From: a bacterium
GTDB lineage: Bacteria > UBP15 > UBA6099 > JAJRTR01
Direction: 5' to 3'
Assembly (NCBI GenBank): GCA_024278215.1
Contig: JAJRTR010000134.1
Location: 1-12,845 of the forward strand
DNA length: 12,845 bases
A model generated the notes under the pieces. It saw only the letters and a list, made by a program, of their open reading frames with translations, had not been told where the DNA came from and did not search any database. How positions within the stretch are numbered: the stretch's first letter is position 1; each line of letters opens with the position of its first letter. Positions 1,728 to 9,542 of the stretch are shown here, piece after piece. Position numbers and translations under genes: made by a program.

Positions 1728-1817
1728 GAGTAGAGCTTTTTTGGCCCGCATTGGTGAAATATGCGAGCTATCTTTCATACGTCGACACAAAGCCGACATG
1801 ACAGTACCATAATGACG

Positions 1818-4886: not shown

Positions 4887-4919
4887 CCGGGCGATAATAT
4901 GAACAATTCTTAGTGAAAG

Positions 4920-5097
4920 GCGCCAATTGCAAAATTATGTTCGTAGCGAGGTCGAGCGAAATAGTTCAGAGCAAGGCGGAGGTGTAAAATCCTCGCAGAC
5001 GTACTTGTAGTGTACGTCGAGGACGATTTTATGCCGACAACGCTGCTATGGACAATAGTAGCCGACCGCAGCAGAATCAGAATTTTGCAATTGACTC
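4920..5097. repeat. Dispersed ~178-bp MITE-like repeat, copy 2 (complete)
   Basis: The left end GCGCCAATTGCAAAATT (4920-4936) and right end AATTTTGCAATTGACTC (5081-5097) form terminal inverted repeats that are exact over CAATTGCAAAATT (13 bp). AAAGG stands immediately at both outer edges (4916-4920 and 5098-5102), a candidate 4-5 bp target duplication. Internally ACGTAC and GTACGT close a TTGTAGT loop, and GAGG/CCTC close TGTAAAAT. It encodes no protein. It is compact, palindromic and in several copies, so it resembles a miniature inverted-repeat element or a large REP-type sequence mobilised by an enzyme supplied elsewhere. Confidence 0.88.
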
Positions 5098-5112
5098 AAA
5101 GGTGCAGAGCTC

Positions 5113-9073: not shown

Positions 9074-9233
9074 GAGCCATTTGCAAAATTATGTTCGTAG
9101 CGAGGTCGAACGAAATTATTCAGAAACAAGGCGGGAGTGCAAAATCTCCGCAGGCGTACTCGCCAAGTACGTCGAGGATGATTTTGTGCCGACAACGCAT
9201 CTGTGACAATTGCAGGCGAACGCACATCAGCAG
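9074..9233. repeat. Dispersed MITE-like repeat, copy 3 (right end lost)
   Basis: Starts GAGCCATTTGCAAAATT (one mismatch to the shared end) and follows copies 1 and 2 to the CAGCAG at 9228-9233. There the match stops and transposase-like coding sequence begins, so the right terminal repeat is missing. It is the most diverged copy. GAGG/CCTC of the other copies is GGAG/CTCC here, keeping both pairs. The next hairpin keeps CGTACT/AGTACG but has a CGCCA loop. Confidence 0.8.
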
Positions 9234-9469
9234 TCGCGCCGGCGCAGCCATCGCCCGCAAAGCCCGCACCAAAAGAACAGACGACGGCTATGCCGTACAG
9301 AGCTTCAGGCAACTGCTTACAAATCTCGGCACCATCAACCTCAATCTCGTACAACCGAAAGTGGCCGGAGCCGAAACATTTTACAAAATAGCCCGGCCCC
9401 ACCTGCCGGTAGCAACGAGCACTGGACCTGCTCGACATTCGATTGCGCGTACCCGGTACGCGCACATAA
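9234..9469 (+). pseudogene. Transposase C-terminal remnant, frameshifted (IS4/IS1634-like)
   Basis: In the frame of 9229 the DNA reads AAIARKARTKRTDDG, then YAVQSFRQLLTNLGTI and a further stretch to ARPHLP near 9408. A one-base shift then gives QRALDLLDIRLRVPGT and a stop at 9467-9469. The order 'DG-x-V-x-SF-x2-LL-x2-L-x-T' followed by 'P...QRALDLL' near the end is how I remember the C-termini of IS4/IS1634-type transposases. The N-terminus, the catalytic DDE residues and terminal repeats are all absent here. The segment joins directly to broken repeat copy 3. It could instead be a decayed gene of another family; the shift from one good frame to another is the firmest sign of a pseudogene. 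Confidence 0.5.
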
Positions 9470-9489
9470 GAAAATACAAATATCCCGAT

Positions 9490-9514
9490 AAACACTGGCT
9501 TTATTGTGTTTTTT
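9490..9514 (+). terminator. Weak stem-loop with T-run after the transposase remnant
   Basis: AAACAC (9490-9495) pairs with GTGTTT (9506-9511) around 10 bases and runs into TTT. The stem is short and AT-rich, so only a weak terminator, 21 bp after the pseudogene stop. Confidence 0.3.
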
Positions 9515-9542
9515 CGTTGGGAAGTTCAGTTTAGATATTAAG

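Follow-up and report, generated by a model that had tools for sequence, protein, structure and literature searches.

The repeat that recurs within our window, a 12,845-bp stretch of DNA corresponding to bases 1-12845 of contig C108 in a draft genome of 4.55 Mb (207 contigs, 95% complete), is almost certainly a non-autonomous DNA transposon (MITE). The sequence-only reading had offered this as one of several possibilities, and it is now well supported by terminal inverted repeats (TIRs), 4-bp target-site duplications (TSDs), empty sites and hundreds of dispersed copies. The family is new, its mechanism is ordinary and its abundance is unusually high.

Anatomy, insertion sites and abundance of the family

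The reference copy for this window is copy 2 (4920-5097, + strand), which is complete at 178 bp (GCGCCAATTGCAAAATT...AATTTTGCAATTGACTC), is flanked by AAAG on its left (4916-4919) and right (5098-5101), and ends 15 bp upstream of the ATG (5113) of a gene that Pfam names as a corrinoid adenosyltransferase. Copy 1 (1-166, + strand) lacks the left 12 bases because the contig begins within it, and is 95% identical to copy 2 across its 166 nt. Copy 3 is clearly related, but its MITE portion starts at 9074 and stops at about 9214. The family consensus (GAGCCAATTGCAAAATT...AATTTTGCAATTGGCTC) is 178-179 bp long, and the shared inverted ends noticed at first sight proved to be 17-bp TIRs (GAGCCAATTGCAAAATT) that are perfect in the consensus. 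This short element carries no gene, transposase included, and its family is divided into subfamilies, with many copies near the consensus and others decayed. Internally shortened copies of 64-107 bp that keep both ends were also seen (L032:2786-2892, L049:8976-9039 and L045:10641-10743); the last is flanked by matching 4 bp, which suggests that shortened forms may also move.

Evaluating the flanks of 108 copies that have both ends revealed an exact 4-bp TSD as the longest flank match in 66, with a 5-bp match in 5 more, as compared to a mean of 2.34 and a maximum of 7 copies with a 4-bp match across 500 shuffles of the flanks. A first sample had given 28 of 49 copies versus 1.3 by chance. Just outside the duplication, C stood on the left in 47% and G on the right in 59%, representing a weak C-NNNN-G preference, and the 100-bp flanks were 58% AT against 48% for the genome. 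Empty sites were found as well, where flanks joined with one TSD align gap-free to uninterrupted repeats elsewhere in the genome (in two examples, with identities of 85.8% over 120 bp and 90.0% over 90 bp). With the element removed, 18 of 82 sites fell within ORFs 200 aa or longer versus 82% of random sites, a contrast that is large even though the control is crude, as long chance frames are common in this genome. Insertions are thus mostly between genes.

These features bear on the suggestion that the repeat might be of REP type, that is, a short palindrome mobilised by a Y1/HUH enzyme, the REP-associated tyrosine transposase (RAYT). The repeat is indeed palindromic, intergenic and present in hundreds of copies, but REP/RAYT elements are palindromes of 20-40 nt and their Y1/HUH transposases make no TSDs, whereas the unit here is 178 bp with long TIRs and 4-bp TSDs, which leaves the REP-type suggestion unsupported and, in our judgement, next to impossible. 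For the MITE, we propose instead that a DDE transposase supplied in trans would bind the GAGCCAATTGCAAAATT ends and excise or copy the element, which, judging from its TSDs, would be inserted at 4-bp staggered cuts into targets that are AT-rich, mostly intergenic and weakly biased toward C-NNNN-G. The long imperfect hairpin would presumably arise simply because the element is built as an inverted repeat, rather than through selection for an RNA, and each copy would drift neutrally after its insertion.

A first look at the genome returned 476 candidates, the best 40 of which all had E < 1e-70 and 94-100% identity. With an iterated profile, 1.10 Mb of sequence gave 123 copies or fragments, rising to 210 once 1.96 Mb was covered (125 of these 210 being >150 bp), and extrapolating the latter to the 4.55-Mb draft gives an estimated ~488 copies or fragments genome-wide, or ~1.5% of the DNA. 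The 17-base end, allowing at most one mismatch, occurs at 519 sites in its own genome and at no more than 2 in each of 385 others, with zero sites in six genomes of the same order. DNA comparison likewise revealed no MITE in 59 other genomes, these six included, nor any match among plasmid and phage collections, and among the matches listed for the TIR pattern in a further genome collection there were two single sites, neither facing a partner end. The sequence GAGCCAATTGCAAAA was not found printed in the literature searched. Among the genomes searched, then, the family is found in one only.

Folding, compensatory changes and the history of copy 3

The sequence-only reading had attributed paired differences between copies to selection for a folded molecule, either RNA or single-stranded DNA, in preference to simple decay, and had raised the possibility of a structured RNA family. 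In such a family, copies would be retained for a folded transcript serving, for example, as a terminator, as a stabiliser of mRNA or as a small RNA. The predicted fold is consistent with this in that the whole element folds much better than its shuffles (z -5.85) and is very stable on both strands (about -5.9), though any inverted repeat would fold so strongly. The consensus sequence folds as one long hairpin at -80.8 kcal/mol; it was used in place of RNAalifold on the gapped alignment, which gave a weak consensus of -7 kcal/mol. A covariation score of 0.063 also slightly exceeded that of column shuffles (0.059, with 6 of 500 reaching the observed value), a score that can rise through relatedness of the copies alone.

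Against this, compensatory changes across the many genomic copies are not in excess, an outcome that the sequence-only reading had itself named as refuting its proposal, as evaluated on a tree of 75 copies and in a separate count on 59 of them. On the terminal branches of the tree, paired and unpaired sites changed at a rate ratio of 1.01, and 89 pair-keeping changes compare to 92.5 expected from the same mutations placed randomly. Double-sided pair-keeping changes numbered 6 versus 3.9 expected (at least 6 in 199 of 1000 simulations), and all six lie in the two most decayed copies. Among the 59 copies, 2 pairs showed double changes versus 1.6 by shuffling, while the GAGG/CCTC stem on which the argument had rested showed none and was broken, lacking an A-U pair, in 22. 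Rfam held no family matching the window. With double-sided changes at chance frequency in both sets, selection for a folded molecule finds no support and a structured RNA family becomes very improbable, whereas simple decay fits, as mutations after insertion are equal at paired and unpaired sites. Copies drift neutrally once inserted.

Internal branches differ somewhat in that 52 of 79 changes fell at paired sites where about 60 were expected (p of about 0.03, by hand), and this deficit would allow for some constraint acting on the palindrome during the mobile phase of a copy. That the mobile element depends on its long palindrome, perhaps through a DNA hairpin extruded in transposition or replication, nonetheless seems unlikely to us, and it is similarly doubtful that source copies are constrained in this manner while inserted copies are not. 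If true, this would make the family a hairpin-dependent MITE, as opposed to one needing its ends only.

The paired stem differences set copy 3 apart from copies 1 and 2. Aligned to the family and to insertion sequences (IS), its MITE portion spans 9074-9214 (+ strand), with the right end lost at a junction around 9214-9222, and is fused to the decayed remains of an IS1634-family transposase gene, of which the 3' end and the IS right end are present (9217-9534, + strand). That stretch aligns at 88% identity over 328 bp with the 3' portion of an IS1634-family gene on contig C48, the product of which reaches 276 bits against the NCBIfam IS1634 model, where the cut-off is 100. Of the possibility that a copy was part of a protein gene, half therefore holds, with part of what had been called copy 3 being a transposase remnant. 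The simplest history would be a deletion that joined the MITE to a neighbouring IS1634 copy, and a second MITE fragment (L078:4867-4924) likewise runs into an IS1634 end. IS1634-family remnants joined to MITE copies thus occur both in the window (9217-9534) and at L078:4922-5079, and an open copy of the transposase gene lies at L092:1-1355 (contig C48), cut by the contig start.

Copy 3 belongs to a subfamily marked by TGCAAAATC, a CTCGCC loop, GGATGATTTT and CAATTGCAG, which carries GAGG/CCCC with an A.C mismatch. The letters reported for the stem, GAGG/CCTC in one case and GGAG/CTCC in the other, were correct, but no sampled copy other than copy 3 carries GGAG/CTCC, and from its own subfamily's GAGG/CCCC background just one pair changed on both sides, the second being restored by one change. 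Several further changes are private to copy 3 as well. The loop difference (TGTAG versus CGCC) is likewise present and is a subfamily marker common to several other copies.

Candidate transposases and other repeats in the genome

A shared transposase had been suggested as a means of checking the element's identity, and none bearing the MITE's ends was found in the draft genome, where an autonomous partner sharing the TIRs and 4-bp TSDs was sought via PF01609, PF13751, PF05598 and PF13701. Draft assemblies readily drop IS elements that are present in several copies, so this absence proves little. Screening ~2 Mb for a parent IS as TIR pairs 200-5000 bp apart yielded one pair of 1823 bp with matching 4-bp flanks (L064) whose interior holds a long frame of host type but no transposase, and three others that enclose host genes. 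The resident IS4 (C200) has ends (CCGTTCAGTTAAGC) that differ from the MITE's, and the IS1634 element differs from the MITE at its right end, so neither fits as the parent.

The best lead comes from an unrelated genome (G060), where a decayed IS1182-like element has near-identical ends (GAGCCATTTGCAAAATT and GAGCAAATTGCAAAATT) that match the MITE's TIRs at 16 of 17 positions each. Between its ends, this 1531-bp element carries a DDE transposase that is itself decayed and has IS1182 as its top NCBIfam hit (E 4e-21), and the MITE's own genome holds two IS1182-like C-terminal remnants. Still, the G060 match falls below the IS1182 cut-off, its transposase gene is broken, its duplication is 7 bp (TTATAAG) against the MITE's 4, no internal similarity to the MITE was seen, and the two remnants have no such ends of their own. 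That an IS1182-like DDE transposase mobilises the MITE is thus a tentative reading, which we consider possible and not probable. One remnant (L134:1447-1881, contig C188) ends ~12 bp short of a complete MITE copy, which is flanked by a TSD of its own (CATA).

Two further interspersed repeats accompany the MITE. A second repeat of ~200 bp, with one end at window positions 1738-1814 and a fuller copy near L038:12747-12981, is estimated at roughly 350 copies or fragments genome-wide, has termini that each form a small hairpin (CCGGATTTCTCACAAAGAAATCCGG and CCCGCATTGGTGAAATATGCGGG) and may derive from an IS200/IS605 element. It is fused to several MITE fragments, with the junction at CATAG|YCCGGATT (L038, L051 and L064). 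A third, at least 220 bp long (L153:7496-7714, L140:6097-6315 and L142:8053-8259), has an estimated ~140 copies or fragments, and the MITE is inserted into it at two different positions.

Relation to known MITEs and significance

Prokaryotic MITEs of similar size that are intergenic, form hairpins and reach hundreds of copies are already known (PMC10969869). Compared by description, Chunjie of Geobacter uraniireducens (178-235 bp; PMC10969869) resembles our family in its size, conserved TIRs, direct repeats, mostly intergenic sites and many partial copies, with 38 copies with conserved ends plus 57 partial (PMC10969869) as opposed to ~490 here. ERIC of the Enterobacteriaceae, also classed as a MITE, is similarly intergenic and reaches hundreds of copies (711 in Photorhabdus luminescens; PMC10969869), but is spread over many species where ours is in one genome only. 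Correia (Neisseria) and QMITE2 (Coxiella) are MITEs of ~190-204 bp (PMC10969869) that number >120 and 78 copies, respectively, against our ~490; the QMITE2 transcript folds into a long hairpin (PMC10969869), and its repeats are 7-9 bp rather than 4 bp.

Our observations add a very abundant MITE family, at ~1.5% of its genome, from a host lineage for which the searched genomes include no close relative beyond its order. They also show that a compensatory-change argument drawn from three copies can mislead when those copies come from subfamilies, and that such repeats help explain assembly breaks, with the window's contig starting within one MITE copy.
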